A stretch of 41,948 bases of DNA from a virus: positions 1-41,948 of the IMG/VR virus record IMGVR_UViG_3300044726_000067; one strand, given 5' to 3'. Positions within the stretch are counted from its first letter, which is position 1. Each line of letters opens with the position of its first letter. Shown here one piece after another: positions 3,043 through 32,997 of this stretch. Below the pieces are notes generated by a model that worked only from the letters and a program-made list of their open reading frames with translations, had not been told where the DNA came from and searched no databases. A program made the translations under genes and the position numbers.

Positions 3043-3123
3043 CGGAGGAGATCAGCTAGCCAGCATCTTCCCTCTCCTCCGGTAAGCGAGGCTGCCGCTC
3101 GTCCCCGAACAACGGGCGGCAGC
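3043..3123 (+). terminator. Two hairpins downstream of the capsid gene (possible attenuator)
   Basis: The 118-base gap after the capsid gene holds two inverted repeats. The first pairs CGGAGGAGA (3043-3051) with TCTCCTCCG (3073-3081). The second pairs GCTGCCGCTCG (3091-3101) with CGGGCGGCAGC (3113-3123), allowing one G-U pair. Neither has a run of T after it, so they may slow polymerase or protect the capsid mRNA end instead of being full terminators. Confidence 0.5.
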
Positions 3124-3150
3124 TTCATCCATCAACCTCTGGAGACAAGT

Positions 3151-3876
3151 ATGCCGATCGATCCTCGTAACCCAGACGCCAGTCTGGTGCCGATTTTCAA
3201 GAACTGGGCGCAGCCGAACCCGGCCAAGACCGCGCAGGCGGGCCGCCCGATGTATGATGACGTCGAGATCGTGGAGATCCGCTTTCCCGGCTCGCGCGCC
3301 GTGAGCGTGTTTCCCGCCACTGCGTTCTCGCACTGGGCGATCGACCCGAACAACGGCGGCCAGATCAAGGTCAGCTACGCGGAGCGGTTCGAGCGCCAGT
3401 ACCGTCAGTTCAAGATGCACGCGCAGCAGACCAAGACCGGCACGCCGCTGGAGCATGCGCCGTTCCTGACCGAGGCACGCCGCGCCGAGATGAAGGCGCT
3501 CAACATCTACACCGTCGAGGCGCTCGCCGACGTCGACGGCCAGGAGCTGAAGAACCTCGGCCACGGCGGCCGCGAGCTGAAGAACGCCGCGATCGAATAC
3601 ATCGCCAGCGCCCGCACCGGCGCCAACACCACGCAGCTCCAGGCCGAGCTGGAGGCGCTGCGCGCCAAGAACCAGGCCCTGGAGGATGACGTCACGGCGC
3701 TGAAGCAGAAGGCCGCCGCGGTGCCGGCGCCGGGCGCCGACGACTTCGACGACATGAGCCCGGACCAGCTGCGCGAATACATCGCCACCAACACCGGGCA
3801 CATGCCGCAGGGCAATCTCTCGCCCAAGACGCTGATGCGGATGGCGCGTGACGCGCGGCCGAGCAAGGCTGCCTGA
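3151..3876 (+). CDS. Head operon protein with helix-hairpin-helix-like segment and coiled coil
   Basis: 241 residues, ATG at 3151 behind CTGGAGACAAG. Three parts are visible. Residues 1-100 have an [14 protein letters not shown] type beta-rich core. Residues 108-152 read [20 protein letters not shown] followed by [15 protein letters not shown], which looks like a helix-hairpin-helix or SAM-like element (a 'progress to deeper element' pattern). Residues 159-190 form a short coiled coil ([24 protein letters not shown]), and the end resembles a SAP/HeH-type small helical motif ([15 protein letters not shown]). Place between capsid and adaptor genes suggests a head-completion or minor structural part that may touch DNA. 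TGATG overlap couples it to the next gene. Confidence 0.75.
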
Positions 3877-6092
3877 TGACCATCCTGACGGTCGTAAAAG
3901 ACGTCTGTGCCGCGGTCGGCGTTGCGACGCCGACCTCGCTGTTCGCGTCGATTGCGTCCAACAGGACCATGCAGGAGATGCTGGCGCTCGCCAACGAGAT
4001 GGCGCAGCGCATCGCCTACGACACCCGCGAGTGGGCGCAGCTAAAGAAGACGGCGACCTATGCCGGCGACGGTGCCGTCAGCCCCGTCGACGGCATCATG
4101 TACGGCACCACCGCGTTCAATCTGCCGGTCGACTTCAAGCGCATGCTGCTGACGGCGGAGGTGTGGCGCTCGACTGACACCATGACGCCGATGCTGTTCG
4201 TCTCGGACACCAACGAGTGGATGCGCCGTCGCGCCAGCACGACCGTCGACAGCAGCGGCGAATGGACGATCCTCAACGGGCAGATGCACATCTTCCCAAT
4301 GATGCCGGTCGGAGTGTCGGCGACTTTCGCCTACATCCACCGCAACTGCGTGGTGCTGACATCTGGCGGCTACGGCGACGCGTTCGTCAGCGACGGTGAC
4401 CGCTACATCCTCGACGAGCGCGTGCTGAAGCTGGGGATGATCTGGCAGTGGAAGGCGCAGAAGGGCAGTCCGTATGCCGAGGACATGGGCACCTACGGCG
4501 ACGCCTTAAACACTTCGTCTGGCGCTGACACGCCGGCCCCGATCCTGATCGGGCGCTCGACGATGTCGGAGCAGATGTCGACGCAGACACCGACGCACTT
4601 TAACGTCGCGCTGGGATTGCCGGGGCCGCCCGGACCGCAGGGGCCGCCCGGTGTCGACGGTGCGCCCGGCCCTCCTGGCGCTGATGGCGTTGACGGCACG
4701 CCCGGTGGTCCGCCAGGGCCGGCAGGTCCCGCAGGACCGGCTGGCGCTGATGGCGCGCCCGGCGCAACGGGCCCGCAGGGGCCGCCCGGCCTCCCTGGCG
4801 TGCCCGGGACGACACCCGGCACGGCGACGCCGCTGCCGAACGCGGCGACCGGCTTTGTCGGATCGGCGACGGCGTTCTCGCGCGAAGACCATCAGCACCC
4901 GCTTGTGCCGGATAACACCCGCGCCACGGTGACCTATGTCGACCAGCAGGACGCGCTGCGGGTCTTGAAGACCGGCGACAGTATGAGCGGGCACCTCAGC
5001 TTGCCGGTCGGGCCCGCCAGCACCAATGCGGTGCGCAAGGACTACGTCGACGGCGCGATCCTCGCCTACGCGGCGCCGTTCGATGCGATCGCCTACGGCG
5101 GCATGCAGCTCAACGGACTGTTCGACATCAGCCAAGAGCGCGCCATGACTGCGCTGGTCGGCAACGGTTACATCATGGATGGCTGGGCGCAATTTTCTAC
5201 TGCGCCGGTCGTGCTCTCCAGCGCGCAGACCATCAACGGTTTTAACGGCGGCAGCTTTCATCTGCGGGTCAACGTGCAGACGGCGAGCGCCACGCCCGCG
5301 GCCGCGCAGGTTTATCAATACATCGAAGGCTCGCGCATGGTCCGGCTGGGGTGGGGGTTTGCCAACCCAACGCCGATGACGATCGCGTTCTGGTCTAACC
5401 ATCATCGCCCCGGCCTCTACACGGGGGCGGTGCGCAACGGTAACAACACGCGGAGCTGCGCCTTCTCCTACACTCAGGCCGCAGCGGACACGCCGCAGTA
5501 CAATGTTGTGACAATCCCCGGCGACACCACTGGGGCTTGGTCGACCGGCAATACCCGCGGTGCGCTGGTGGTGTTTAGTCTTTCCGCAGCAGCGGCTGAG
5601 CTGGCCCCATCATTCGGCACTTGGGTGGCCGGCTCTTACGGTGGCGGTCCCGGACAGATCAACGGCGCAGCGGATACGAACGATGTCTTTCGCCTCGGCT
5701 GCGTTGCCTTTTTCCCCGGGACGGTGGCACCGACCGCGGCGCAGTCGACGCTGATCATGCGGCCGACCGAGCAAGAGATCGCGACGTGTCAGAGATATTG
5801 GCGCAAGACACGCGCGTTCGCTGGGATTGCATATAGCACAGCTAACGTAGCGGTTCTTGTTGAGCATAAAAATATGCGGGCCACTCCTACTAGCGGACAA
5901 ACTGCGCTGATAACAATAACAGACGTTTATGCGGCCAATCCAGTGCAAGCTAGTGCATCAGTTGTAGATGTGACTAACAGCGCAGATAGTGGACAGTATG
6001 GCCTTGGTACGTTCACCGGGTTGACTTCAGGCCGCTACTATACCTGTCATCAAAGTAGCTCTGGCTTTTTAGTTCTTGACGCGAGGCTGTGA
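3876..6092 (+). CDS. Head-tail adaptor fused to collagen-like stalk and tail-fibre domain
   Basis: 738 residues. Residues 1 to about 225 match the helical head-tail adaptor class (P22 gp4/T7 gp11 type): [15 protein letters not shown], then [21 protein letters not shown], and [15 protein letters not shown]. Residues 247 to about 314 are Gly-X-Y triplets ([19 protein letters not shown] and so on), a collagen-like triple helix with one break. Next come the [10 protein letters not shown] linker and the [20 protein letters not shown] repeat, both common in tail fibres. The last 330 residues form a beta-rich domain ending with [13 protein letters not shown], a motif of fibre heads. In P22 the adaptor ring and the receptor-binding protein are separate genes, so this fusion is unusual. 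Translation is coupled to the gene before it (TGATG) and to the one after. Confidence 0.85.
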
Positions 6093-6295
6093 TGGCAGAC
6101 TACGCCCTGACAGCGACAGAGTATGTAATCCGCACCGAGGATAGTGCGTGCATTCCACCTGACCCTGACAACCGCGACTGGGTCGAGTATCAGGCGTGGC
6201 TCGAAGACGGTGGCGTGCCCGACCCCTACGTTCCTCCTGCAACAACCAAGCCTGCGCCCGCGAAAGCAAAAGCAAAGCCGGGGAGAAAGCGGTGA
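6092..6295 (+). CDS. Small tail-fibre-associated protein
   Basis: 67 residues from ATG 6092 (GTG 6089 is an alternative). The start overlaps the stop of the fibre gene as TGATG. It carries the pattern IPPDPDNRDWVEYQAWLEDG followed by G-x-P-D-P-Y. This I/R-P-x-D-x-x-N-x-D-(W/Y)-x-x-Y-x-x-W-x-x-x-G-x-x-P-x-P pattern is known from short proteins encoded right after phage tail fibres, and from the ends of tail fibre assembly proteins. The C-terminus is a Lys/Ala/Pro tail. It probably helps fibre folding or is a small fibre component; this is inferred from place and motif. Confidence 0.8.
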   Translation: MADYALTATEYVIRTEDSACIPPDPDNRDWVEYQAWLEDGGVPDPYVPPATTKPAPAKAKAKPGRKR

Positions 6296-7959
6296 GCATC
6301 CACCAGCAATTCCGCCGGACGCCGGTGCCGCAGCAGGCGATGCAGCAGATGCAGGTGGCGCAGATCCCGGCGCCGAACCGCGGCATTATCGAGAGCGAGA
6401 ACCTTGCATTCATGCCGCCCGGCGCCTCGCTGGTGCAGGAGAATTGGGTCTCGACCATGCGCGGTGTGCGGCTGCGTGGCGGCTCTATCCGCTGGTGCGA
6501 CCTGCACGCGCTCGACACCACGGTGCCGCCGGTGCCGTCGCCACTGCGTCAGCCAGTGGTCTCGGCATTCGAGTACGTCAGCGGCAACATCCAGCGCATG
6601 TTCGCGGCGCAGCGCACCAAGCTGTTCGACGTCACCGCCGCCGGGCCGATCTTGGTCAAGGACAATCAGACGTCCGGCAATTACGCCGCCTCGCAGATGG
6701 CGAACGCCAGCGGCGACTATCTGACCGCGGTCAACGACGGCGGCGACTTTCCGCTGCGGTACGACGGCACGACGTGGACGGTGTTGGACGCCAACCAGAT
6801 CAGCGGGCCGGTCGGCTCGCGGGTCGAGCACGGCCGCAACCTCACCTACGTCTGGAAGTATCGTAACCGGCTGTTCTTCATCGAGGGCGCCTCGATGAAC
6901 GCGTGGTATCTGCCGCTCAACGCGATCAACGGCACGCTGGCCATGATCCCGCTGTCAGGCGCCGCAACCAAAGGCGGCCGGCTGCTGTTCGGTGCGACGT
7001 GGTCTTTGGATGCCGGCGACGGCATCGACGACAAGATCGTCATAGGGACCGACCTCGGAGAGTTGCTGATTTTCACGGGCAGCAACCCGGCTGACGCCGC
7101 GAACTGGCGCCAGGAGGGCCGCTACGAGGTGGCGCCGCCGCTGGGCATGAACGCGCACCACCCGATTGGCGGCGACCTGCTGCTGGCGACGGTCGAGGGC
7201 GTCGTGCCGGTGTCGGCAGCAATCTCCAAGGACAGCACCCAGCTCGAACTGGCAGCGATCACGCGCCCGATCAAAAACACATGGCGCGCGGAGATGTTGG
7301 AGAAGCGCCAGCACCCGTGGTCGATGGAGCGATGGGACGAGTATGGCGGGCTGTTCGTAACGTGGCCCTACGGCAAGCCCGGCGAGCAGCGATGCGGAGT
7401 GGTCAACATCTCGACCGGCGCGTGGTCGAAGATTGTCGGATGGGACGCGACCTGCTTCTGCCGGCTGCGCGGCGACATGTTCTTCGGCACGCAGGACGGC
7501 ATCATCATGCAGGCCGACCGCACTGGCTACGACGACGGCAACCACCGCAAGATCCCGTATGTCGCCACCCTGGTCGGTGGCTGGGAGCAATTCCGCACCG
7601 GCGGCGGCACTGTGGTGTGGCGGCAGGCGCGGGCATCGTTCTTCGCCAGCAACGGCGAGCCGTTCCAGCCGCAGCTGTCGGCGACCACCGACTACCTCAT
7701 CAAGATCCCGACGCCGCCGCCGGCCGGCGCCGATCCTGGTCTGCAAGACGTCTGGGACCAGGGGCTGTGGGATCAGGCCAAATGGGACCAGCCGTCGCTG
7801 GGCGTGCCGGTGGTGCGCAACACCGGCTGGGTGTCGATCGGCGAGACCGGCTACACCCATGCACCGATCATACAGGTGACGGTGGCGCAGCAGGCCACAC
7901 CGAAAGTCGAACTGATCGTAATCGCCGCGACCTACGAGCGCGCCGGTTACGCCGTCTGA
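6292..7959 (+). CDS. Tail hub / packaged-DNA stabilization protein (P22 gp10-like)
   Basis: 555 residues from GTG 6292, which overlaps the previous stop (GTGA) and has GGGAG at 6281. An upstream in-frame ATG at 6196 would bury the start inside the preceding gene and is not preferred. The sequence shows the stabilization-protein pattern: ENLAFMPPGASLVQENWVST near the N-terminus, followed by many short beta repeats (LKYRNRLFFIEGASMNAWY, GLFVTWPYGKPGEQR, LRGDMFFGTQDGIIMQAD). These fit a beta-propeller-like hub that closes the portal channel below the adaptor ring. Order after the adaptor gene is the same as in P22-like heads. Confidence 0.85.
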   Translation: MSIHQQFRRTPVPQQAMQQMQVAQIPAPNRGIIESENLAFMPPGASLVQENWVSTMRGVRLRGGSIRWCDLHALDTTVPPVPSPLRQPVVSAFEYVSGNIQRMFAAQRTKLFDVTAAGPILVKDNQTSGNYAASQMANASGDYLTAVNDGGDFPLRYDGTTWTVLDANQISGPVGSRVEHGRNLTYVWKYRNRLFFIEGASMNAWYLPLNAINGTLAMIPLSGAATKGGRLLFGATWSLDAGDGIDDKIVIGTDLGELLIFTGSNPADAANWRQEGRYEVAPPLGMNAHHPIGGDLLLATVEGVVPVSAAISKDSTQLELAAITRPIKNTWRAEMLEKRQHPWSMERWDEYGGLFVTWPYGKPGEQRCGVVNISTGAWSKIVGWDATCFCRLRGDMFFGTQDGIIMQADRTGYDDGNHRKIPYVATLVGGWEQFRTGGGTVVWRQARASFFASNGEPFQPQLSATTDYLIKIPTPPPAGADPGLQDVWDQGLWDQAKWDQPSLGVPVVRNTGWVSIGETGYTHAPIIQVTVAQQATPKVELIVIAATYERAGYAV

Positions 7960-7969
7960 GGAGAGAACA

Positions 7970-8452
7970 ATGGCGGCCGACGCACCAATTCCGACACCGA
8001 TCCCCGCGGCTGCCGCGGCGGATCCCGCCGCCGACACGGTCGCTGGCTCGCTCGATCAGTTCTACGATCCGGTCGGCGCGATGGGCGGACGGTTCGCGCC
8101 GGCTTACGTCCGCGGCTACGCGCCGTCCGAGGCGGCAGTGGCGGCGTGGCAGGCGAAGAACCGGCCGCTGGAGGGCATGGACCTCGACACCCTGCGCATG
8201 CCGGAGCAGTGGCGTCCACCGGCACAGGTCAATCCCTACGCTGGCGACGTCTACGGCTCAGGCCGCATCCCGGACCAGATGAGCTTCATCACGACCGGCA
8301 AGGGTCGGCTCGACGACAACATTCTGCGCTCGTGGTCACAGGGCGGACCGTATGACGTCGACGCGCGGCGCAACGCGATCGCCAAGCGCCTCACCGACAA
8401 CGAGGCGGCGCAGAAGGCATACACGCCGCCCAAGCAATGGTGGGAGATGTGA
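7970..8452 (+). CDS. Hypothetical virion-region protein
   Basis: 160 residues, ATG at 7970 behind GAGGAGAGAAC. The first 40 residues are Ala/Pro-rich; the rest is polar, with segments PEQWRPPAQVNPYAGDVYG and GPYDVDARRNAIAKRL. No family is recognised. It lies between the tail hub gene and the GNAT-fold gene and overlaps the latter, so it is most likely a minor virion or morphogenesis protein. It has no signal peptide or membrane span. Confidence 0.75.
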   Translation: MAADAPIPTPIPAAAAADPAADTVAGSLDQFYDPVGAMGGRFAPAYVRGYAPSEAAVAAWQAKNRPLEGMDLDTLRMPEQWRPPAQVNPYAGDVYGSGRIPDQMSFITTGKGRLDDNILRSWSQGGPYDVDARRNAIAKRLTDNEAAQKAYTPPKQWWEM

Positions 8453-8949
8453 CGTTCGAGCTGCTCTATGGGTACGACACGCTGGTCGCGAATTTCGTCG
8501 CGCAGCTGATCCCGCATTGCCGCCGAGGCTTCGGCGACACTGCGAAGGCGATCGGCGTGCTCGATGCCGACGGCCGTCTCGTCGCCGGTGTCGTCTACCA
8601 CAACTACGACCCCGAGGCGCAGATCATGGAGATGAGCGGCGCCTCGATCGATCCGCGCTGGATGACGCGGCGCGTGGTCGGCAGCACGTTCCAGTATCCG
8701 TTCTTGCAGTGCGGCTGTCAGATGGTGGTGATGCGTCTGCCGGCCGACAACGAACGCATGCTGCGGCAGTGCGCGGTGTTCAACTTCGTGTTCACCGAGC
8801 TGCCGCGACTGTTCGGGCGCGAGCGTGACGGCGTGGTTGCGACGCTGACGTTCGAGGACTGGGCGGCGAACAAATTCAACAAGCGGTTCAAGTGGCACAT
8901 CGACAACCGGTTGATCTATGCCCCTGAATACACCGAGGAGGCCGCGTGA
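8449..8949 (+). CDS. GNAT-fold acetyltransferase-like phage protein
   Basis: 166 residues if started at GTG 8449 (GTGA overlap with the preceding stop); ATG 8437 would add four residues. The protein begins with FELLYGYDTLVANFVAQLIP, then AIGVLDADGRLVAGVVYHNY, a pattern known from GNAT-like proteins in tail gene clusters of many alphaproteobacterial phages. Later parts (FNKRFKWHIDNRL near the end) fit the same family. Members are thought to have an acyltransferase fold, but a substrate is not known; a role in virion assembly or host protein modification is equally open. The classical R-x-x-G-x-G/A acetyl-CoA loop is not obvious, so activity is uncertain. Confidence 0.8.
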   Translation: MTFELLYGYDTLVANFVAQLIPHCRRGFGDTAKAIGVLDADGRLVAGVVYHNYDPEAQIMEMSGASIDPRWMTRRVVGSTFQYPFLQCGCQMVVMRLPADNERMLRQCAVFNFVFTELPRLFGRERDGVVATLTFEDWAANKFNKRFKWHIDNRLIYAPEYTEEAA

Positions 8950-9380
8950 TGCCTGACATGCGCAGTGCGATTGCGATGGCGATGATGGCGCAGCGCGGCG
9001 GAGGCGGCGGGGGCGGTATCCCTGCTCCGGGCGGAGCGCCGATGGGCGGCCCGCCACCCGGTGGCGGTGTCAATATCGGAGGACCGGCCGCCAGTGCGAT
9101 GATGGGGATGCAGCAAGCGGCACGGAACCGGCCGCTGCCACCACCCGGCAACACGCGCCCTGGCGGAGCGCCTCCGCTTGGCCCGGGCATGGACCGCTTC
9201 ATGCCGGGCGGCATGCCGACCCCCGAGGCGTCGACTGCGATGATGCAGGCGCAGATGGCTGCACCCAACCCGTACATGACGATGCCGGGCTCGCCGGCCT
9301 TAGCGATGGGCGGCATGGGAGCTCCACAGGCATCACCGGACATGCCCGTGCCGCCAATGCCGCCAGTGCCAGGAGCGTAA
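8949..9380 (+). CDS. Gly/Met/Pro-rich low-complexity protein
   Basis: 143 residues from ATG 8949, overlapping the previous stop as TGATG (GTG 8946 is an alternative). After a short helical start (DMRSAIAMAMMAQRG) the chain is almost all Gly, Pro, Met and Ala, with a run of seven Gly. It resembles disordered virion-associated segments. No enzyme or membrane motif is present. It is paired with a second low-complexity gene of the same length directly downstream, which suggests related roles, perhaps in ejection or as flexible head fillers (inference). Confidence 0.7.
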   Translation: MPDMRSAIAMAMMAQRGGGGGGGIPAPGGAPMGGPPPGGGVNIGGPAASAMMGMQQAARNRPLPPPGNTRPGGAPPLGPGMDRFMPGGMPTPEASTAMMQAQMAAPNPYMTMPGSPALAMGGMGAPQASPDMPVPPMPPVPGA

Positions 9381-9383
9381 CCG

Positions 9384-9818
9384 ATGGTCGACTATAGCTC
9401 GATGCTTCAAAAGTACTTGCCGCAGGCGAGTAACCAGCAAAGAAACCAGATCACGCAGGCGCTGATGAACATCCAAAATCCGCCGCCGCGCGCGATGATG
9501 CCGCCGCAGCCGAACGCCGCTGGCGTGCCGGCGCCGGGTGCAGGCACGCCAGGGCAGGCGCAGACCCCGGGAGCACCAACGCCACCGATCGGCGGGCCGC
9601 CTGGACCGATGGGGCCAGCCGCACCGCCGACGCCGGGACAAGGGCTGGCGCCGACGCCAGGGCTGATGCCGCAGTCGATGGGGCAGAGCATGCAGCCGGG
9701 CGGCATGACGCCGGGCGGACCGAACATGGCGCCGCCGCCGATCGTGGGTCAGCCGCCGGTGCCGCAGACGCCGAACATGGTGCCGCCTCCTGGGCTGGGC
9801 AGCGGGCAGGTCTATTGA
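9384..9818 (+). CDS. Pro/Gly-rich low-complexity protein with short helical head
   Basis: 144 residues, ATG at 9384, three bases after the previous stop. Residues 1-30 form a likely amphipathic helix pair (YSSMLQKYLPQASNQQRNQI), and the remainder is Pro, Gly, Met and Gln-rich, with repeated P-x-P-G units. It stands in the operon between the GNAT-like gene and the S74-domain protein. No known family. The ribosome site is weak (AGGAGC at 9370), fitting translational coupling. Confidence 0.7.
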   Translation: MVDYSSMLQKYLPQASNQQRNQITQALMNIQNPPPRAMMPPQPNAAGVPAPGAGTPGQAQTPGAPTPPIGGPPGPMGPAAPPTPGQGLAPTPGLMPQSMGQSMQPGGMTPGGPNMAPPPIVGQPPVPQTPNMVPPPGLGSGQVY

Positions 9819-9827
9819 GGGTGAGAC

Positions 9828-11315
9828 ATGGGTAAGCCATCACCGCCGTCACCGCCTAATCCGGTCGACACTGCGCGCGCCTCGACGTCGACCAATGTCG
9901 GCACGTCGATCACCAATGCGTATCTGGGCAACACCAACCAGATCACGCCGGACGGCAGTCTGACTTACGAGACGACCGGCGAGCACACCTGGGACGATCC
10001 CTACACCGGCTTATCGATAAAGATCCCGACGTTTACGGCGACGCAGAAGCTGTCGGACGCGCAGCAGGCGATCAAGGACCAGACCGACGCCGCCAAGGTC
10101 GGGCTCGCCGGCATGGCGAACTATCAGACCGGGCGCCTGTCCAATCTGATGAAAAGCGAGATCGATCTCAGCAAGGCGCCGACGCCCGGCGACCCCAGCG
10201 GGATCGGCAACATCCTCGCGCCTTCGACCTCGTTCGGCGCCGCCGGCGATCCGCAGGCCAGCCTCGGCGATTACGGCAAGCAACTCACCGAGTTCGGTGA
10301 CGCCGGCGCGATCACGAAAGATTACGGACCGGCAGACAACTTTTCTGCCGATCGCGGGCGCGTCGAGGAGGCGTTGTACGGGCGGCTCAATCCGCAGCTC
10401 CAGCGCGAGCGCGGCAACATCGAGCAGCGCCTCGCCGACCAGGGCATTCGCTACGGCAGTCAGGCCTACACGGCGGCGATGGATGACTACAATCGCCAAG
10501 CCAATGATCTGCGCCTCGGCGTGACCGCCGCCGGCGGCCAAGAGCAGCAGCGCATGATGGACATGGCTGCGCAGCGCGCCGGCTTTCAGAACGCCGCGCA
10601 GCAGCAGGACTTCACCCAAAAATACGGCCGCGCGCAGTTCGCCAACGAAGGGCAAAAGCAACAATTTCAGGAGACGCTCCAGGCTGGTCAGTTCGCCAAT
10701 GAAGCGCAGCGCAACAAGTTCACGCAGGAGGCAGCACGCGGCGAGTTCGCCAACGCCGGGCTGGCGCAGCAGGTCGCGCAGAAGCAGTCCGAGTTCAATG
10801 CGAAGAATATGGCGCGCAATCAATACATGTCGGAGCAGTACGCGCTCCGCAACCAGCCGATCAACGAAATCTCGGCTCTACTTAGCGGTTCACAGATTAA
10901 CAATCCAAACTTTGTGAATACGCCAAATAATCAAATCCCGACTACTGATGTCGCCGGCTTAATCAACACAAGATTTAGCCAGGACATGGACATTTATAAG
11001 CAGGAGAGCGCGAACTATAACGCGATGATGGGCGGTTTGATGGGGATGGCCGGCGGGATGATGAAAATGTCTGACCGCGCGCGCAAAGACGACATCCACA
11101 AGATCGCGACGGTGTTCTCGGCGAGTGATGACGGCGGCAGCAAGAAACTGCCGATCTACAGCTACACCTACAAAGACGATCCAGACAACACGCCTCAGAT
11201 CGGGCCGATGGCGCAAGACGTCGAGAAGATTGACCGCGGCGCAGTGCAGACGCATCGCGGCACCAAGTACATCGACGAGCAGCGAGTGATGGGCAACATT
11301 CTGAGGGCTGCGTAA
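9828..11315 (+). CDS. Virion protein with C-terminal peptidase S74 (self-cleaving chaperone) domain
   Basis: 495 residues, ATG at 9828 (GAGGGTGAGAC upstream). The N-terminus has the pattern NVGTSITNAYLGNTNQITPD, then GSLTYETTG, found in a family of tail-cluster proteins. Residues about 255-335 are Gln/Ala-rich with near repeats of a QFANE unit (three copies), likely a long helix. From about 414 the sequence SDRARKDDI, then LPIYSYTYKDDPDNTPQIGP and MAQDVEK, is that of peptidase S74 domains, which aid trimer folding and then cut themselves off. The Ser-Lys pair expected for cleavage is S415 and K420, five apart as in endosialidase. It may be a fibre or ejection-associated protein. Confidence 0.85.
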   Translation: MGKPSPPSPPNPVDTARASTSTNVGTSITNAYLGNTNQITPDGSLTYETTGEHTWDDPYTGLSIKIPTFTATQKLSDAQQAIKDQTDAAKVGLAGMANYQTGRLSNLMKSEIDLSKAPTPGDPSGIGNILAPSTSFGAAGDPQASLGDYGKQLTEFGDAGAITKDYGPADNFSADRGRVEEALYGRLNPQLQRERGNIEQRLADQGIRYGSQAYTAAMDDYNRQANDLRLGVTAAGGQEQQRMMDMAAQRAGFQNAAQQQDFTQKYGRAQFANEGQKQQFQETLQAGQFANEAQRNKFTQEAARGEFANAGLAQQVAQKQSEFNAKNMARNQYMSEQYALRNQPINEISALLSGSQINNPNFVNTPNNQIPTTDVAGLINTRFSQDMDIYKQESANYNAMMGGLMGMAGGMMKMSDRARKDDIHKIATVFSASDDGGSKKLPIYSYTYKDDPDNTPQIGPMAQDVEKIDRGAVQTHRGTKYIDEQRVMGNILRAA

Positions 11316-11316
11316 C

Positions 11317-14300
11317 ATGGCTGGAGAAGACGCAATCAGCTTCATCTTCGGTGGCAACACCGGACTGACGCAGGAAGAGCTGAAGAAACGCCGCGCGCGT
11401 GTCGCCGCCGAACTGGCACGGCAACACCCGTTCCCGAAAAATATCGGCGAGGGTCTGACCTATCTCGGCAACTCGATCGGCGATGTCGGGCTGGAGTGGA
11501 GACTGCGGCAGGCCGAGGCCGAGGCGCTGAAGCGTCAGCAGGGCATCGTGGGCGGAGCTCCGCCGGAAAGCGACGGCTCCAATCCGATCGCGCGCCCAAG
11601 CGATCGCCCGGTGGTGACGGTGGCTCCGCCGCCGGCGGCAGCGCCCGCAGCAGCACCTGCCGCGCGCCCGGTGCGGACTGTTCCGGTGCGGCCGTCCGTG
11701 GCGCCGTCGACCGAGACGGCGGCACCGCCGCCGGCGCTGGTCGATCCCAAAACTCCGGTGACCGTCGACACGGGCGACCCCGACGCCCCGGTGGTTGCGC
11801 CACGCATCGAGATGGTGAACCCGCCGCCCGACACCGCGCCTCCGCCGCCGGTCGAGACGGCGCCCGACACCGACAGCCCACCGCCTTTCTTTGAGGGCCG
11901 GCCTAACAATCAAGTGAGCCAGCCGCACCCGGCGCTCGCGGTGCCGCACCTGGGCGGGCCGCGGTTCTCGCCGCCGCCGACCAGGGCCGAGCAGATGTCA
12001 CAGCAGATGCGGCAGCCCGTGCCGGTGCCGCAGGCATCGCCCGACGCCTTTGGTGGACGGTTCGGCGGCGACCAGCTGCGTGCGATGGAAGGCGAGGGCG
12101 AGCCGGTCCCGTACTTCGGCGAGAGCGCGTCACTGCCGCGCGGCGTAGCGCAGCGGGAGCCGCTGCGGAGGACCGACCGGCTGCCGCTGCCACCGCAGCC
12201 AGAGTTTGCCGAGGAGGGCTCGCCGTTCAACTCGATGGACGCCGCCGCACCAGAGCTGCCGCCAGCGCCGCCGCCGATCGGCAGGGCGGCGCCGATGCCG
12301 CGACCGCGGCCGAACGTCGAAGGCGGGCTCAACACCCTCGATCGGCAGTCGGCGGCGCCCGCGCCACAACAGGTCGCGGACGGCGGCTATAACTCGATCG
12401 ACGCGCAGGCGGGCTTCCGGCGCCCGACCCCGGGCTACATGCAGGACGCGATCGCGCGCGCCACCCCAGACCCCGACCGGCAGGCCTACCTCGGCTCGCT
12501 GGCGGGGAGCGAGGCGCGCAGTGCCCGCGAGGTGTCACCGACCGGCGCCGCCGGGCCGTTCCAGTTCACCCGCGGCACCGGCAGGCAGTACGGCATCCCC
12601 GGCAACCGGCGCATGGATCTCGACGCCTCCGCGGCCGCCGCGAACCGGCTGACCGACGACAACGTCGCCGCGTTCGAGCGCATCAACGGCCGACCGCCCA
12701 GTCCGGCGGAGATGGCGGTGATGCACCAGCAGGGTGGCGTCACCGGTGCAAGAATGATCGCGGGCACCGGCAATGCACCGGCGCACAATCTGTCGGTTAA
12801 CCGGGTCGACCCGAACGCCTCGCCGCAGCAGGCGACCGCCAGGATCAAGGAATATTACGGCATGCCGGACGAGCCGCCTGGGGGTGGGGGCACGGCGCCG
12901 ACCCAGACCGTCAGCCAGCCGCCGCGGCAGGCGACCATGATCGGCGGCGGGCAGTCACAGGACCCCCGCGCCGCGATCGTGCAGGCGCTAGTCGATCAGC
13001 AGGGCGGCCCCCGTGAGGCCAGCCAGTCGTTCACCGACCCGTCTGGAGGCGGGCAGCAAAACCCTATTTTGGCGGACCTGACGGGTCCGCAGGCGACCCA
13101 GACTGGGGCATCCCCGACAGCGGGACGCTCGACGTCGACTTCGGCAGCTTCTGGTAATCTGCCGATCACGGTCAGCGACATCTCACCGATCCCGATCGCG
13201 CAGCGCGGGAGCTCGATGGGAGCACCGCCGGTGTCGTCTGACATGCAGCGTGGCCCGGCTGTGCCACAGGCGCCGGGCGTCGACCCGCGCGCCAATGAGC
13301 CAATCCCGGACACGGTCCAGCCGCCGCCGCTGGTGCCGCCCGGCCCGCGGCCAGAGCCGCCTACGCGGCTAGACCCGACCCCGGCGGAGCGGTACTGGCG
13401 GGCGGTCGAGCGTGATCCGTATGCCAGCGACACGACCAAGGCACACGCCAAAGAGGTCATTGCGCGTGAGGCGCATATCCGGGAGTGGAAGCAGAAGCAG
13501 GTCGACGACAACTACAACTATCTGCGCGGTCGCCACGACCACGACACTGACGAATACAACAAGCGGGTCCGCGAGGCGCCGAAAGAGGCGCTGGAGCAAC
13601 TCGCAATCCGGCTGAAGATCGCGAAGGATCAGGCCGACCTGCGCAATCAGCCGCTCGTATCCGCCAAGATGCAGGCCGACCTCGATAAGGTGCTGAAAGA
13701 ACTGAACGAGCCGCACCGTGTGTCGATTGCCGGGACGCAGTTCGAGCAGGCGCCGACGCGGCCGGGCCAGCAGCCGCAGCCGTACAAGGTATCCCCCGGA
13801 CTACCGCAGCCCAAGGAAGAGCCGCTGACGCAGCAGCAGTCTGAGGCACTGATATTTGTACAGCGCGTTAAGCCAGATTTGCGTGTGCTGGAGGATCTCG
13901 ATCACGGTGCTGTACTGGCAAACCCGACCGAGGCGTTCCGCGGCAATATCCCGTTGATCGGCAACATAACTGCAACGGACGCCTACCGCCGCGCCCGCAA
14001 CGCGGCGATAAACTTTGAAGGCGGCTTCATGAAGCTGGTCAGCGGCGCGGCGGTGTCGCCATCCGAGTACGGCCGCAACATGCCCGCCTTCCTGCCGTTG
14101 GCAGGCGACGACAAGAACGAGCTGATCGAGAAGACCGCCCGCCGCGAACGGTTCACCCGGGCTGTTGAGAGTGTGACCGGCCGCGCGGGGATGGAAAAAA
14201 TCCGCGAGCAGATGGACGCCGAAAACGACAATTATCGGTTCCGGGCCGAGGGCCGCAAAGACCCGGTGCATGTCCAGTCGATCGAGGAGGCACGCGGGCT

Positions 14301-21803: not shown

Positions 21804-22108
21804 CAGCGCCCACCCTCCGCTTCGTGAGCCGCCTGCTCGATCTCGTAGAGCAGGTTGCCGTCGATTGCGCTGAACAGCTGCTGGCTCTTCATGGTGTAGT
21901 CGATGGCGAAGCCGGTGCGCTGCTGAACGTAGTCAGCGGTTTCCTCGACGATCCTGTCGACCTGCGCGGCGAGCAGGACGAGGTCGGCGCGCACCGCATT
22001 GATCTCGGCGGTGCCAGGGTGGCGGTCCAGCTTGGCTGGCACCACGCTGGCGAAGAACGCCGCCAGCTCGCGATAGAGTTTCACTAAGTCGTTGTGTCGG
22101 TCGTCCAT
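21803..22108 (-). CDS. Small helical hypothetical protein
   Basis: 101 residues, starting at ATG 22108 with the conserved leader AACAACGGAGCAACCCA just upstream. A longer frame beginning at 22135 lies in the leader itself and is not preferred. The protein is helical (LYRELAAFFASVVPAKLDRH, ADLVLLAAQVDRIVEETADY). It is the first gene behind the operator-promoter at 22135-22163, so its cluster is likely controlled by the same regulator as the other two operator-bearing units. Confidence 0.75.
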   Translation of the reverse strand: MDDRHNDLVKLYRELAAFFASVVPAKLDRHPGTAEINAVRADLVLLAAQVDRIVEETADYVQQRTGFAIDYTMKSQQLFSAIDGNLLYEIEQAAHEAEGGR

Positions 22109-22134
22109 TGGGTTGCTCCGTTGTTGACGAAGCA

Positions 22135-22163
22135 CTGGTAGGACAAGTTGTCCGGGCTGTCAA
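22135..22163 (-). promoter_or_regulatory. Promoter with operator palindrome in spacer
   Basis: On the - strand: TTGACA (22163-22158), a 17-base spacer, TACCAG (22140-22135). The spacer and -10 edge hold CCGGACA-ACT-TGTCCTA (22155-22139), a near match to the palindrome at 32307-32323. It would drive the gene at 22108 and those after it. The -35 overlaps the stop codon of the 59-residue gene upstream. Confidence 0.75.
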
Positions 22164-23617: not shown

Positions 23618-23647
23618 CTTGTAGGACAGCCTGCCCTACCATGTCAA
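23618..23647 (-). promoter_or_regulatory. Promoter with operator palindrome in spacer
   Basis: On the - strand: TTGACA (23647-23642), 18-base spacer, TACAAG (23623-23618). The palindrome TAGGGCA-GGC-TGTCCTA (23638-23622) fills the spacer. The layout is the same as at 22135 and 32303. It drives the gene starting at 23592. Confidence 0.78.
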
Positions 23648-24042: not shown

Positions 24043-24263
24043 CACGCGGGCTCCTGTGGATCGTTCGGGTCGGGGATGCCCTTGAACACGTCGTTGATAG
24101 CCTGCGCCAGCGCCTGCGCCAGCAGCGGGTGGCCGCCGAGATACAACACGACCTCGACCACGACGCCGTTATGGTCGGTGACGTCGAGCTGCACCGGACT
24201 GCCCAGCCCGCCGATGTTGTGGGCGGCGACGTGATAGACGTCGTGGATGTCGATGTGCGTCAT
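24042..24263 (-). CDS. Small hypothetical protein
   Basis: 73 residues, ATG at 24263 with the leader core GCAACGGAGCC upstream. Features are a His-rich start (MTHIDIHDVYHVAAHNIGG) and a beta-helix body (VVVEVVLYLGGHPLLAQALA). The gene diverges from the regulator gene at 24318 across a 54-base control region. No function is recognised. Confidence 0.75.
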   Translation of the reverse strand: MTHIDIHDVYHVAAHNIGGLGSPVQLDVTDHNGVVVEVVLYLGGHPLLAQALAQAINDVFKGIPDPNDPQEPA

Positions 24264-24283
24264 AGCGGCTCCGTTGCTGCAAA

Positions 24284-24317
24284 TTGACAATGACATAAAA
24301 GACACTAGTTTGTCACT
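24284..24317 (+). promoter_or_regulatory. Promoter-like sequence for a possibly leaderless regulator mRNA
   Basis: TTGACA at 24284-24289, a 16-base spacer and TAGTTT at 24306-24311 lie so close to ATG 24318 that transcription would begin at or next to the start codon. No ribosome site is present between them. The segment GACACTAGTTTGTC (24301-24314) has GACA/TGTC arms like the operators elsewhere in the genome. Confidence 0.5.
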
Positions 24318-24512
24318 ATGCCAATACACCAGCACGTCAAAGATTTGCTGCGCGAGATCGAGGCTTACTGTCGTAGGAAACAGATCACGCGCACCGATTT
24401 CTCCAACCGCATCACCGGCGGCGGGCATCTGGTTCGGAGAATGTATCTCGGACAACAGCCGCGGCTGTCGACGATCGACCGCATCCGGCGTTACATGAAA
24501 GAGCACCCGTGA
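24318..24512 (+). CDS. Small DNA-binding regulator (repressor candidate)
   Basis: 64 residues, ATG at 24318. The chain HVKDLLREIEAYCRRKQITR, then TDFSNRITGGGHLVRRMYLG, fits a small helix-turn-helix protein of a kind I know from Rhizobiales (an N-terminal helix, a turn around the S-N-R-I, and L-x-R-x-x-x-G). It ends with a further helix (STIDRIRRYMKEHP). The promoter sits directly before the ATG without a ribosome site, as for leaderless repressor mRNAs. It diverges from the - strand operon. It may be the protein that binds the GGACA-N3-TGTCC operators; the HTH protein at 32409 is the other candidate. Confidence 0.75.
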   Translation: MPIHQHVKDLLREIEAYCRRKQITRTDFSNRITGGGHLVRRMYLGQQPRLSTIDRIRRYMKEHP

Positions 24513-24979
24513 ACCCTGAATGGTCTAAGGACATGGTCGACCGCTTTACTGCGCTCTGCCTGATGCGTGACGCCGGTTCCTATGTCGTGATCGCCGCGAC
24601 CCTGACCGCGGAGTTCGGTATCCACGTCACCAAGAACGCCTGTATCGGCAAGGCCAGGAGGCTGGGCGTGACCAACGGCAACGGTCACGATCGCCACGCC
24701 GCCAGCAGGCGCAAGAAGCCAAAACCCAAGCCGCGCAAGAAGCCGAACGAGCGGCCCGGCCGCAAGCCGGTGACCAGCGAGCGCGCCGCACCGACACCGC
24801 CGCCGCCATCAGTCAGCCTGCCGGGGCAATTGTCACTGTTCCAGCTGGGCCCGCGCGACTGTCATTGGCCATACGGCGACGGCCCGTTCACGTTCTGCGG
24901 CGTACCCACGCACCAGACCGGCGGCCCGTACTGTTCTGAGCATCACCGTGTAGCATTCCCCGGGCTGTACCGCCGATGA
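24509..24979 (+). CDS. GcrA-like cell-cycle regulator
   Basis: 156 residues from GTG 24509, overlapping the previous stop (GTGA). The N-terminal 55 residues match the GcrA DNA-binding fold: W5, then VDRFTALCLMRDAGSYVVIA, and KNACIGKARRLGV. A basic Lys/Arg/Pro linker follows. The C-terminal part has CHWPYGDGPFTFCG and YCSEHHRVAFPG, the Cys/His pattern at the GcrA end. In alphaproteobacteria GcrA binds sigma70 and acts at CcrM-methylated GANTC promoters. A phage copy could redirect host RNA polymerase to phage genes or to S-phase functions. Adjacent genes are replication and nuclease genes, which supports early expression. Confidence 0.9.
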   Translation: MNPEWSKDMVDRFTALCLMRDAGSYVVIAATLTAEFGIHVTKNACIGKARRLGVTNGNGHDRHAASRRKKPKPKPRKKPNERPGRKPVTSERAAPTPPPPSVSLPGQLSLFQLGPRDCHWPYGDGPFTFCGVPTHQTGGPYCSEHHRVAFPGLYRR

Positions 24980-26789: not shown

Positions 26790-27551
26790 ATGTCTAGCCT
26801 TGGTTTCACTTACGACGCGCCGGTCGGCGACTTCACCCCCATCATCAAATACGACGCCAAGTCGGGCCTGATCACTCGCATTGAGCGGGTGCAGACCGCC
26901 GCGGGCTGGCAGAACGAGCCGGTCAACATTACCGACGAGTTCAAGGCGCTGGTGGATCTGGAAAATGTGGAGGTGGGCCCGATCAATTTTAACACCGGGG
27001 GCGCACCCTCGTTTTTAATGGTGCGCCGCGACGATGTCGTCGCCGGTAAGACTGCACTGCCTGCCGCACCAGACACCAACCACAAGTCCGGCGTGCGGTT
27101 TATGCTGAAGCTGGCCAAAGGCTGCGGCGGCGAGCGGCCGGTGCGCGAGCTGGCGCAGAACAGCCGGGCGTTTCTCACCGGCTTCGACGCGCTCAACAAG
27201 CAGTACCTCGCCGAGAAAGACGCCCACCCCGGGCAATTGCCGGTGATCGCGCTCGACGGCAAGCCGGTGCCGGTCAAGACCGGCTCCGGGCTGCGCAGCA
27301 GCACCAACTTCCATCCCAAGTTCAAGATCATCGCCTGGGGGCCGCGCGGCGACTTGGTCTACGTTCCCAAGACGCTGGCGTCGCGGATGGCGCAGGCGGA
27401 GAACGGCGCGGCCGGGAATGGCCGGGAAAAGCCGGGAAATGGCGCGGGCATTTCCGGCGACAACTGGGATGCTGCACCCGCGACCGGCGCGCAGCGCGCG
27501 GAGGCGCCCAGGGTCGACACCTCGACGGTTGCTGCCGACGATTTCGGTTGA
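26790..27551 (+). CDS. Probable single-strand DNA-binding protein
   Basis: 253 residues from ATG 26790, with ACGGAG upstream; a frame reaching to 26697 has no good start. Segments: GFTYDAPVGDFTPIIKYDAK, FKALVDLENVEVGPINFNTG, HKSGVRFMLKLAKGCGG, SGLRSSTNFHPKFKIIAW. I know this type as a conserved unknown protein in alphaproteobacterial phages and prophages. Placement between a recombination nuclease and the primase-helicase, a beta-rich core and an acidic, flexible C-terminus (ending VAADDFG) all fit an SSB-like role of the T7 gp2.5 kind. That assignment is inference. The low-complexity tail (about 205-253) holds repeated GNGREKPGNGAG. Confidence 0.75.
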   Translation: MSSLGFTYDAPVGDFTPIIKYDAKSGLITRIERVQTAAGWQNEPVNITDEFKALVDLENVEVGPINFNTGGAPSFLMVRRDDVVAGKTALPAAPDTNHKSGVRFMLKLAKGCGGERPVRELAQNSRAFLTGFDALNKQYLAEKDAHPGQLPVIALDGKPVPVKTGSGLRSSTNFHPKFKIIAWGPRGDLVYVPKTLASRMAQAENGAAGNGREKPGNGAGISGDNWDAAPATGAQRAEAPRVDTSTVAADDFG

Positions 27552-30743: not shown

Positions 30744-31229
30744 ATGCGCTATCGCTCTGAGTGGATCTGGCTGTTTTTGGGGACGCTGTTGGTCCTGGTC
30801 GCGATCTTCGCTACGGCGTGGACGAAAAGCAGCGCCCTAAAAACCGAGGGCAGCTTTTCGTCCCCCAGGACAAATGAAGAACGCACAAACCGCACAAACC
30901 GCACAAACCGCACAAATGTGCCGAATGTGCCGAATGTGCCGAATGTGCCGACCAATGTGCCGAATGTGCCGACCGCATATGCCCCGGAGCCGCCAGACCC
31001 GGTCGCCTTCCAGCAGCGGTGGTCGCCGGTGAGCCCGGTGCCGACGGCGCGGCCGATCGTGCCGGATCTGCCGACCCGCACCAGCGAGGCTCCTGAGCCG
31101 CCTGAGAGGGTGGCCAGGGTCAAGGCGCTCCAGCAGAGGAATTATCGCAAAAACCGTGGGGTCTGCGCTGTCCACGGTTTACGGAAAGTTTACAGCGCAA
31201 ACAAACGGAGCTGGCGATGCAGACGATAA
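30744..31229 (+). CDS. Membrane-anchored protein with 9-base tandem repeats
   Basis: 161 residues from ATG 30744 (two bases after the previous stop). A longer frame to 30246 runs over the preceding gene. Residues 7-27 are a membrane span (WIWLFLGTLLVLVAIFATAW). The next 50 residues hold TNR units repeated four times and then NVP units, exactly matching 9-base DNA repeats. A Pro-rich stretch and a basic C-terminus (NRGVCAVHGLRKVYSANKRS) with two Cys follow. The short repeat could change copy number by slippage in multiples of three codons and so keep the frame. Its job is unknown; an inner-membrane spanin or exclusion protein would be possible. Confidence 0.7.
   Translation: MRYRSEWIWLFLGTLLVLVAIFATAWTKSSALKTEGSFSSPRTNEERTNRTNRTNRTNVPNVPNVPNVPTNVPNVPTAYAPEPPDPVAFQQRWSPVSPVPTARPIVPDLPTRTSEAPEPPERVARVKALQQRNYRKNRGVCAVHGLRKVYSANKRSWRCRR
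30882..30971 (+). repeat. 9-base tandem repeats
   Basis: Four units of CGCACAAA(C/T) at 30882-30917 run into four units of AATGTGCCG at 30915-30950, with two more at 30954-30971 after ACC. The period is three codons, so the repeat keeps the reading frame of the membrane-anchored protein. Confidence 0.9.
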
Positions 31230-31585
31230 CAAACGGTGGCTATAGTTCAGAAGAGGATAAGAAGCAGAGCGATGACCCGCGTATTGTACAGTATAGGGAG
31301 GGGCTGCGGGCTATGGCGGAGATCCAGCAGGAGAAGGATATTCTCCAAAAGCAGCACGACGAGACGGTGACCCGGTGCAAGGGGACGCAGGTCGAGCTCG
31401 ACGCGCTGAACTTGGCCTACCAGCGCCTCCTGGGCGAGATCGAGCAGTACCGCCGGGAGCGTGACGAGGCGGTGACCAAGCAGGCCGAGACGGCGGCAAT
31501 CTTCTCGGCGGTGCTGGAGCTGATGATCAAGCACCGCCCGCCACAGCCGACCGAGGAAGTAAAGCAAAACCTCTCAGAGGTCTGA
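31217..31585 (+). CDS. Coiled-coil hypothetical protein
   Basis: 122 residues, ATG at 31217, overlapping the previous gene by 13 bases (GGAGCTGGCG upstream). Residues 20-95 form a long coiled coil (IVQYREGLRAMAEIQQEKDI, LQKQHDETVTRCKGTQVELD, IEQYRRERDEAVTKQAETAA). The chain is charged and has no membrane span. It is the last gene of the + strand early unit and is closed by a strong hairpin. It could pair with the membrane-anchored protein upstream. Confidence 0.75.
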   Translation: MQTITNGGYSSEEDKKQSDDPRIVQYREGLRAMAEIQQEKDILQKQHDETVTRCKGTQVELDALNLAYQRLLGEIEQYRRERDEAVTKQAETAAIFSAVLELMIKHRPPQPTEEVKQNLSEV

Positions 31586-31640
31586 CCGACCTCTGAGAGG
31601 TTGCACGGTGAACCGGTCTGGCGGCTTAGGCCGCCAGATC
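31568..31640. terminator. Terminator hairpins between converging units
   Basis: A perfect 15-base stem, AACCTCTCAGAGGTC (31568-31582) with GACCTCTGAGAGGTT (31588-31602), ends the + strand unit. A second stem, GGTCTGGCGGC (31615-31625) with GCCGCCAGATC (31630-31640), lies at the stop of the - strand gene at 31626. The two units run into each other here, so the pair probably serves both directions. Confidence 0.82.
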
Positions 31641-31916
31641 CTTGCCGGACCGGGCCGCCACCCGCAGGGTGCGGACCGGCGTCACCACGGTGTGCGCCTG
31701 CACAAACTGCCGGCTGAGGTGCTCGCGGACGGCGTCCATGTCGAGCGTCTCGCGGGTGCTCTCGGACACCGAGAGCCGGAACCGCTCGCCCTCGTAGGCG
31801 CCGGGGCCGAGGTCGGCGAGCGCCGCCTTCAGCGCCTTCTCCGCGATCGCCAGTTCGGCGACCCGCGCCTTCAGGATCCCGTAGTCGTCGATCAGCTTCT
31901 GTAGGTTGGTGGTCAT
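31626..31916 (-). CDS. Conserved small helical phage protein
   Basis: 96 residues, ATG at 31916 with the leader core GTAACAACGGAGCAACGACC. N-terminal coiled coil (LQKLIDDYGILKARVAELAI), then GAYEGERFRLSVSESTRETL and DMDAVREHLSRQFVQAHTVV. The pattern Y-E-G-x-x-(F/Y)-R-x-(S/T)-V-S-x-S-x-R-x-T-L-D is familiar from small proteins in phages and plasmids. Its function is unknown. It is the last gene of the three-gene - strand unit. Confidence 0.75.
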   Translation of the reverse strand: MTTNLQKLIDDYGILKARVAELAIAEKALKAALADLGPGAYEGERFRLSVSESTRETLDMDAVREHLSRQFVQAHTVVTPVRTLRVAARSGKDLAA

Positions 31917-31932: not shown

Positions 31933-32073
31933 TTACCAAAGCCAAATAAGGACAGTTACGATTGCGTTCGTGGTGATCACGTCCATCACCTGACCGCGCA
32001 GGGCCTGCGCGATCGAGAGGGCGCCTAGCCCCCCGATCGACGCCAGGAATATGAGGTCGATTGCGAGGGCCAT
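31933..32073 (-). CDS. Small membrane protein, 46 residues
   Basis: Starts at ATG 32073, overlapping the upstream stop (ATGA). It is almost entirely hydrophobic: ALAIDLIFLASIGGLGALSI, then a short loop, then TTNAIVTVLIWLW. Two membrane spans are likely. The longer frame to 32151 falls within the upstream gene. Small two-span proteins next to early regulators can act in superinfection exclusion; there is no direct proof here. Confidence 0.65.
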   Translation of the reverse strand: MALAIDLIFLASIGGLGALSIAQALRGQVMDVITTNAIVTVLIWLW

Positions 32074-32276: not shown

Positions 32277-32302
32277 TTGCTTGCTCCGTTGTTGATGACC
32301 CT

Positions 32303-32331
32303 CATTTAGGACACGCTGTCCTACCTGTCAA
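32303..32331 (-). promoter_or_regulatory. Promoter with perfect operator palindrome in spacer
   Basis: On the - strand: TTGACA (32331-32326), 17-base spacer, TAAATG (32308-32303). The spacer holds the perfect palindrome TAGGACA-GCG-TGTCCTA (32323-32307). A repressor on this site would block polymerase directly. It drives the gene at 32276. Confidence 0.82.
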
Positions 32332-32338
32332 GGACAAA

Positions 32339-32367
32339 TTGACAGCGCGGACAGTCTGGCCCATATT
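32339..32367 (+). promoter_or_regulatory. Promoter for the HTH gene
   Basis: TTGACA (32339-32344), 17-base spacer, CATATT (32362-32367). The -35 lies eight bases from the -35 of the opposing promoter, so the two divergent promoters cannot both be filled easily. A GGACAG half site is in the spacer (32349-32354). Confidence 0.78.
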
Positions 32368-32395
32368 TGACCAATCCTGACCAACCCCTGACCAA
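32368..32395 (+). promoter_or_regulatory. Three phased TGACCAA repeats (operator candidate)
   Basis: TGACCAA stands at 32368-32374, 32378-32384 and 32389-32395, that is, at 10 and 11 base steps on the same helix face. They start right after the -10 of the HTH-gene promoter and end before its ribosome site, a proper place for an autoregulatory site. Confidence 0.7.
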
Positions 32396-32408
32396 AGCGG
32401 AGCCGTAA

Positions 32409-32663
32409 ATGACTGAAAACAATGAAGATTGGCAGATGCAGCGATCAATGTCGCCAAAGGCCTACGAACGCACAATCGACATCCTGGGGCTCAATCAGGC
32501 GTCCGCGGGACGCTATTTGGGCGTGTCGGCGCGCACGTCTCGCCGGTACGTCTCAGGCGACGCCGTAATCCCTGCCGTAACGGTCCTGTTTCTGCGATCG
32601 TGCATCGCCCACAAGGTCACGCCGGTGGTCCCAAAACTGAAGCGCGGCACGCGGCAGAACTAA
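32409..32663 (+). CDS. Small helix-turn-helix regulator
   Basis: 84 residues, ATG at 32409 behind GCGGAGCCGTAA. The core MSPKAYERTIDILGLNQASA, then GRYLGVSARTSRRYVSGDAV, is a clear XRE/Cro-like helix-turn-helix (helix two NQASAGRYLG, recognition helix around SARTSRRYVSG), followed by a C-terminal helix (IPAVTVLFLRSCIAHK). Phage and plasmid repressors or Cro-like proteins have this build. It has its own promoter with phased repeats in its leader and a hairpin at its end, so it is a separately controlled unit. It probably controls the switch between the - strand unit and itself. Confidence 0.85.
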   Translation: MTENNEDWQMQRSMSPKAYERTIDILGLNQASAGRYLGVSARTSRRYVSGDAVIPAVTVLFLRSCIAHKVTPVVPKLKRGTRQN

Positions 32664-32700
32664 TGGAGGAAACTCCGATTTTTTAGCGAGTTTCCTCCAT
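32663..32700 (+). terminator. Hairpin at the end of the HTH gene
   Basis: A perfect 13-base stem, ATGGAGGAAACTC (32663-32675) with GAGTTTCCTCCAT (32688-32700), around a T-rich loop. It starts at the stop codon of the HTH gene. No T run follows, but position and strength suggest that it separates the regulator gene from the late region. Confidence 0.7.
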
Positions 32701-32722: not shown

Positions 32723-32752
32723 TTGACGTTGCAACGCTAGGGCGCGCATAAA
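32723..32752 (+). promoter_or_regulatory. Late-region promoter candidate
   Basis: TTGACG (32723-32728), 18-base spacer, CATAAA (32747-32752), about 50 bases ahead of the first gene of the long + strand late region. No other good promoter-like sequence is apparent ahead of the terminase genes. Confidence 0.5.
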
Positions 32753-32802
32753 CTCCAGGTTCGGAGCATGCGCGCCCTTTGCGTGCGCGCGGGGCTGCTC
32801 GA

Positions 32803-32997
32803 ATGGCAAATATGAAAATAATCAGCATGTACTCGGCCAGCGAGGCCGAGTTGCGTGCTGATACCCGCGCCGAACTGCGCGAGGTCGCAGCGATGTTGAG
32901 CCTACAAATCAATGAGTTGATCGAGATTGCGCAGCGGCTGCGCGTCGATGTCGATCGGCTGATGCAGGAGGGGGGTACCCCAAAGCTAAATGGCTAA
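32803..32997 (+). CDS. Small helical protein at the head of the late operon
   Basis: 64 residues from ATG 32803; ATG 32812 and GTG 32779 are other options, and none has a strong ribosome site. The chain is helical: SEAELRADTRAELREVAAML, SLQINELIEIAQRLRVDVDR, LMQEGG. Its stop overlaps the next start (ATGGCTAA). It might be a small regulator or part of the packaging system. It is not recognised. Confidence 0.6.
   Translation: MANMKIISMYSASEAELRADTRAELREVAAMLSLQINELIEIAQRLRVDVDRLMQEGGTPKLNG

Follow-up and report, generated by a model that had tools for sequence, protein, structure and literature searches.

The divergent control region and its setting

The window analysed here is the whole 41,948-base stretch of an IMG/VR virus record, and its gene order is typical of a tailed phage. 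A divergent control region lies between a short leftward operon and the gene for HTH84, an 84-residue HTH protein. The main features of the window are the following.

24263–19995, − strand: second leftward block
24.3–31.6 kb, rightward: early/replication genes, including a 64-residue HTH-like protein (HTH64), a GcrA homologue, VRR-NUC, PDDEXK and a primase-polymerase
31568–31602, − strand: terminator-like hairpin closing the short leftward operon
32276–31626, − strand: short leftward operon, facing away from HTH84
31626–31916, − strand: L96, 96 residues, kept in the leftward operon of relatives
31933–32073, − strand: 46-residue protein, by eye resembling a membrane segment
32073–32276, − strand: first leftward gene, 67 residues, no Pfam, PHROG or NCBIfam match
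32303–32331, − strand: leftward promoter, TTGACA (32331→32326), 17 nt, TAAATG (32308→32303); a consensus match only
32309–32321, − strand: operator O_L, GGACAGCGTGTCC on the − strand, filling the 17-nt spacer of the leftward promoter
32339–32367, + strand: rightward promoter, TTGACA (32339–32344), 17 nt, CATATT (32362–32367)
32349–32361, + strand: operator O_R, GGACAGTCTGGCC, one arm mismatch, within the 17-nt spacer of the rightward promoter
32368–32395, + strand: three TGACCAA repeats (at 32368, 32378 and 32389) between the −10 box and the start codon
32409–32663, + strand: HTH84, 84-residue HTH ORF, proposed Aca1-like (auto)repressor
32663–32700, + strand: perfect 13-bp inverted repeat directly 3′ of HTH84, with a T-rich loop containing six T
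32990, rightward: probable small terminase (weak match)
33730, rightward: terminase large subunit
35994, rightward: portal, followed by structural genes

Each strand carries one TTGACA box, as an earlier note on this DNA had observed. The gap between the boxes is 7 nt rather than the eight bases given there, and they point apart, the promoters diverging back-to-back instead of lying face-to-face. The rightward TTGACA-17-CATATT is the sole sigma-70-like site between 30 and 35 kb in a consensus scan (0.8 expected by chance); the −10 matches TAAATG and TACCAG are weak. A perfect palindrome, AGGACA-CGC-TGTCCT (32308–32322), had been placed within one of the promoters and is indeed inside the leftward one, the spacer of which reads GGTA-GGACA-GCG-TGTCC. 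The rightward spacer reads GCGC-GGACA-GTC-TGGCC and contains the operator GGACA-N3-TGGCC, which has one mismatch relative to GGACA-N3-TGTCC. A repeat search shows the region as a 28-nt imperfect inverted repeat whose arms are 7 nt apart, which amounts to two symmetric copies of one promoter-operator. Since the spacer of the second promoter holds its own operator copy, the separate operators proposed earlier for each direction are not present: both promoters hold the same operator type.

The inverted repeat 3′ of HTH84 folds as RNA with an energy of −21.1 kcal/mol (z −6.5) and is a candidate terminator or attenuator, separating HTH84 from the packaging genes. The gap from HTH84 to the next gene is 140 nt, with this strong hairpin between them, and a second perfect 11-bp inverted repeat (32739–32778) lies in the same gap. 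Elsewhere in the window, a second divergent control region (24263–24512) heads the rightward early operon. A TTGACA at 24284 (+) precedes the HTH64 ORF (24318–24512) there, and the region contains TGACA...TGTCA repeats that differ in kind from the 32.3-kb operators. The GcrA cell-cycle regulator homologue (24509–24979; Pfam E 3e-21), present in several relatives too, suggests an alphaproteobacterial host. Short tandem repeats of 9 nt (30882–30945) within ORF 30744–31229 yield repeated TNR/NVP residues.

Operators elsewhere in the window and in relatives

Comparison of the window with itself showed that the left promoter recurs at 22106–22163, and pattern searches added the copy at 23647.

23618–23647, − strand: third operator-promoter, TTGACA-5-GGGCAGGCTGTCC-TACAAG, heading a 303-residue gene (23592–22681)
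22135–22163, − strand: fourth operator-promoter, TTGACA-4-GGACAACTTGTCC-TACCAG, heading the gene 22108–21803 and the genes after it

The register of the operator in both promoters is the same as at 32.3 kb. The operator stands 4–5 nt downstream of TTGACA in four of the nine TTGACA hexamers of the window, and TTGACA-N4/5-operator (≤1 mismatch) occurs four times in the window versus zero times in 400 Markov-1 simulated windows, which average 11 TTGACA each. Three leftward units (32276–31626, 23592 onward and 22108 onward) are the predicted targets of HTH84. No other viral contig gave a near-exact match to the left operator-promoter, and the operator string did not turn up in a literature search.

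Relatives were sampled as 80 loci recovered via the portal protein. Homologues of HTH84 lie upstream of the terminase genes in many of these loci and were found in 20 of the 21 records searched. The operator-promoter architecture, which the earlier note had advised looking for in related phages, recurs in G001, G002, G007, G010, G012, G013 and G020/G021. G001, with an HTH protein 74% identical, keeps the left operator and promoter and has GGACA-N3-TGACC as its right operator. In G002 two TTGACA boxes 6 nt apart accompany GGTCA-N3-TGTCC and AGTCA-N3-TGTCC (divergent pair 40860/40867), and a further operator-promoter copy is located at 27274; G007 has two leftward operator copies. Both sides carry GGACC-N3-GGTCC in G010 and G012, GGCCA-N3-TGGCC in G013, and TGAC(A/T)-N3-TGTCG or close variants in G020 and G021. 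The operators are identical or nearly so within one phage and different between phages. Conservation of the architecture, with its sequence shifting in step on both sides, is what one would predict for a repressor and its operators. No clear operator pair was found in G005, G016 and G019; the automatic operator-pair search missed several pairs recognised by eye, and some relatives have one or more genes between the operator and HTH84.

Close DNA relatives of the window were absent among phage records, and tblastn and pattern searches found no HTH84 in phage records or GTDB contigs. Two isolated portal relatives have other layouts: RHph_I3_18, with an integrase and a repressor-C/HTH pair, and ppBjS10J-1, with an HTH pair. 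Two HTH84-family ORFs stand in tandem in L032 (1476–1990) and in L079 (3447–4033), possibly a duplicated repressor. A distant, oppositely oriented (minus-strand) cousin of HTH84 occurs in L027, L033 and L074/L075; the L027 and L075 records are integrase-bearing portal relatives.

The TGACCAA repeats stand ahead of the HTH84 ORF at steps of 10 and 11 bases, just as described earlier. The word occurs 14 times in the window versus 2.8 expected, and none of 200 simulated windows contained a 7-mer three times at 9–12-nt steps. Because the real window also holds several other short tandem repeats, neutral tandem duplication is a possible origin of the triplet. The operator half-site has TGACC as one of its variants, and from the right arm of O_R (TGGCC, 32357) through the three repeats the spacing runs 11-10-11 bp; the TGACC repeats may act as weak half-sites on one helix face that strengthen autorepression. 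Conservation of the repeats in relatives, on which the earlier note had staked its reading, fails for TGACCAA, the triplet being present in the window alone and in no relative examined, but holds for the operators. The array was rejected as the key operator owing to its absence from the relatives examined. A scan of viral contigs for it returned mostly unrelated tandem repeats, with an HTH84-like ORF near two of 119 loci.

HTH84 and its match to the operators

Pfam gives HTH84 a sub-threshold match to Xre-like-HTH. Against solved structures, an HTH84 profile built from 26 relatives matches Aca1 best (E 1.3e-4), followed by a HigA-like protein and MqsA. The AlphaFold2 model contains five helices (pLDDT 91). 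Aca2, SO3848, MqsA, Aca10, HigA2 and Aca1 head its structural alignments, nearly tied at Z 8.3–9.7, and Foldseek E-values are weak (best 0.017). HTH84 has an Aca-like small-HTH fold, a match that many other HTH folds approach with similar scores, and is probably dimeric. Every Aca promoter is reported to carry an inverted repeat within the core promoter, mutation of which relieves repression (PMC9410906); HTH84 and several of its relatives likewise have an inverted repeat inside the core promoter leading to their own gene. We call HTH84 Aca-like, and not Aca, because an NCBIfam search recognised no Acr family in the leftward genes (unfamiliar Acrs would escape it) and HTH84 lies outside their operon. 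Searches of the PADLOC anti-defence library with HTH84, HTH64 and three leftward genes gave no match.

Resemblance to MqsA and HigA in both profile and fold would also suit an antitoxin of a toxin–antitoxin pair that autoregulates its own operon. We consider this very improbable, as no toxin family was recognised among the neighbours scanned (a set that leaves out the 64-residue gene at 32803), the next gene is set off by the gap and hairpin described above, and operators occur as far as 10 kb away.

Recognition-helix distance correlates with operator half-site distance across 14 phages, some with hand-picked operators (r = 0.44, p = 0.0007), and does so given TerL distance (partial r = 0.36, p = 0.004; n = 14), whereas the correlation for the full-length HTH protein is lost under TerL control (p = 0.14). 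When 2.9 million viral contigs were scanned at the DNA level alone, the pattern TTGACA-N4/5-GGWCA-N3-TGWCC-TA returned 48 stretches, compared with four for a palindrome-swapped control (GGWGA...TCWCC). An HTH84-family ORF lies within 1.5 kb at 13 of 45 new loci versus two of 119 TGACCAA-scan loci (Fisher p = 8e-7), the latter being an imperfect control in that they are not promoter-like; 32 of the 45 have no such ORF within this distance. None of the four palindrome-swapped loci has an HTH84, a set too small for comparison.

These results bear on whether another regulator, either a host protein or HTH64, binds the operators, with HTH84 merely nearby. Host CtrA provides a precedent in alphaproteobacterial phages (PMC9437464), and the window also encodes the GcrA homologue and HTH64. 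HTH64, which has a divergent region of its own 8 kb from HTH84, was detected in seven of 21 records, some of which are fragments, and operator pairs are also found in records without detectable HTH64. Together with the co-occurrence of operators with HTH84-family genes and their covariation with its recognition helix, this makes another regulator unlikely.

Among the loci from the DNA-only scan, L244 packs seven rightward operator-promoters into 8.3 kb, and an HTH84-like ORF comes immediately after one of these. The same stretch (3100–11412) holds three leftward copies as well; the sites are mostly TTGACC-TATA-GGWCA-N3-TGWCC-TATAT, with the upstream half-sites overlapping the −35 box, and most of the rightward ones head small ORFs of no known kind. 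In L286 (11003–11962) an ArdC anti-restriction gene directly follows an operator-promoter, and an ORF weakly resembling HTH84 stands just upstream. Since the same operator also heads genes for an LPD29-domain protein (L242), a RadC-like protein (L253) and a homologue of L96 (L259), it is plausible that the leftward genes of the window have early or counter-defence functions.

Regulatory reading and comparison with known systems

The earlier note had likened the region to a repressor/antirepressor switch. A predicted repressor-controlled divergent switch headed by the HTH84 gene is well supported, by the shared operators, their conservation, the covariation and the DNA-only co-occurrence. The region is not evidently a lysogeny switch, and this part of the likeness is not supported: no antirepressor was identified, and two opposing divergent repressors at the same operators were not encountered, HTH84 being the only one at 32.3 kb. 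The remark that no integrase was found is borne out, with no tyrosine integrase, serine recombinase or ParA-type AAA_31 in the window and no integrase, serine recombinase or ParA in the 12 longer records with a close HTH84 (the window and eleven others). Recombinases occur in seven of nine portal relatives without a close HTH84, versus none of these 12 (Fisher p = 3e-4), in a comparison of records that are not independent and may be fragments. HTH84 could nevertheless be the immunity repressor of a temperate phage, acting in lysogeny or superinfection immunity, with the integrase lost or not needed. As among heteroimmune phages, the specificity of the operators varies from one phage to another; the repressor is linked to the operators, and the use of one operator type at several promoters is reminiscent of stoperator-type systems. 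HTH84, however, leads into packaging/late genes, and given the recombinase distribution and the missing opposing repressor we judge a lysogeny switch to be quite unlikely.

The reading we prefer, with a probability of roughly two in three, makes the region the master operator of a phage repressor regulon, in which HTH84 would act as an Aca1-like autorepressor and switch off leftward early genes at scattered positions. HTH84 would bind the 13-bp palindrome GGACA-N3-TGTCC between the −35 and −10 boxes, both in the rightward promoter that drives HTH84 itself and in three leftward ones (32331, 23647 and 22163); given this position of the operator, binding would exclude RNA polymerase. The TTGACA promoters would fire immediately at the start of infection. 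HTH84 made from the rightward promoter would then accumulate, turn the leftward early genes (possibly counter-defence genes) off and limit its own synthesis by negative autoregulation. The analysis itself established the sites, their registers, conservation, covariation, co-occurrence and predicted fold; binding, repression, dimerisation and timing are inferred, as are the assignment of the leftward genes to the early class and any part played by TGACCAA.

More tentatively, an Aca1-type repressor may serve non-integrating phages as a regulator of early genes across the whole genome; its operator, at a constant place in the promoter spacer, would diversify with the recognition helix, mark dispersed counter-defence genes in many unrelated phages and be usable as DNA bait for finding such genes. 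If so, Aca-like repression extends beyond acr-aca operons, and a single small protein would set the timing of a number of scattered early operons in phages where no integrase was detected. Uncharacterised genes of early or counter-defence function could then be searched for by the operator sequence, and the repressor–operator pairs that occur in nature (GGACA, GGACC, GGCCA and CGACA types) would form a ready family for studying co-evolution of a 5-bp half-site and a recognition helix.

Aca1 of Pseudomonas phage JBD30 is, like HTH84, a small HTH protein (Z 8.3–8.5 in the model alignment). Its published sites, GGCACACTGTGCC and TAGGCACAATGTGCCTA, have the 5-N3-5 geometry seen here, and its probe contains GGCAC-ACT-GTGCC and TAGGCAC-AAT-GTGCCTA (PMC9410881); the layout of the window operator, TAGGACA-N3-TGTCCTA, equals that of the latter. 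Both operators are 13-bp palindromes with 5-bp arms, a 3-bp centre and GG...CC outer bases within the core promoter. Aca1 lies in the acr operon that it represses, whereas HTH84 opens the opposite transcript, on the late side; its operator is also found at promoters 8.7–10.2 kb away, and no acr gene was recognised. MqsA and HigA resemble HTH84 in profile and in the fold of their antitoxin HTH domain; HTH84 differs from them in having no zinc-binding N-terminal domain, no recognised toxin, and operators spread over the phage genome. As in lambda-type OL/OR, operators cover back-to-back promoters and distant promoters and an HTH gene is first in the rightward direction, but the window has one repressor with no cI-like partner, no integrase was found in it, and its 13-bp operator is short and occurs once per promoter. 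A shared promoter/regulator sequence also heads many small early genes in archaeal viruses, where such sequences served to find anti-defence genes (PMC11065993); those promoters are archaeal, whereas here a sigma-70-like promoter with an embedded palindrome is paired with an Aca1-like protein in a bacterial virus. The Aca-like repressor and the spacer operator are thus of known kinds, and what is new is their arrangement: a repressor outside the operon that it is predicted to control, a mirrored operator pair with dispersed operators in a fixed register, and a specificity matched within each phage and diversified between phages.
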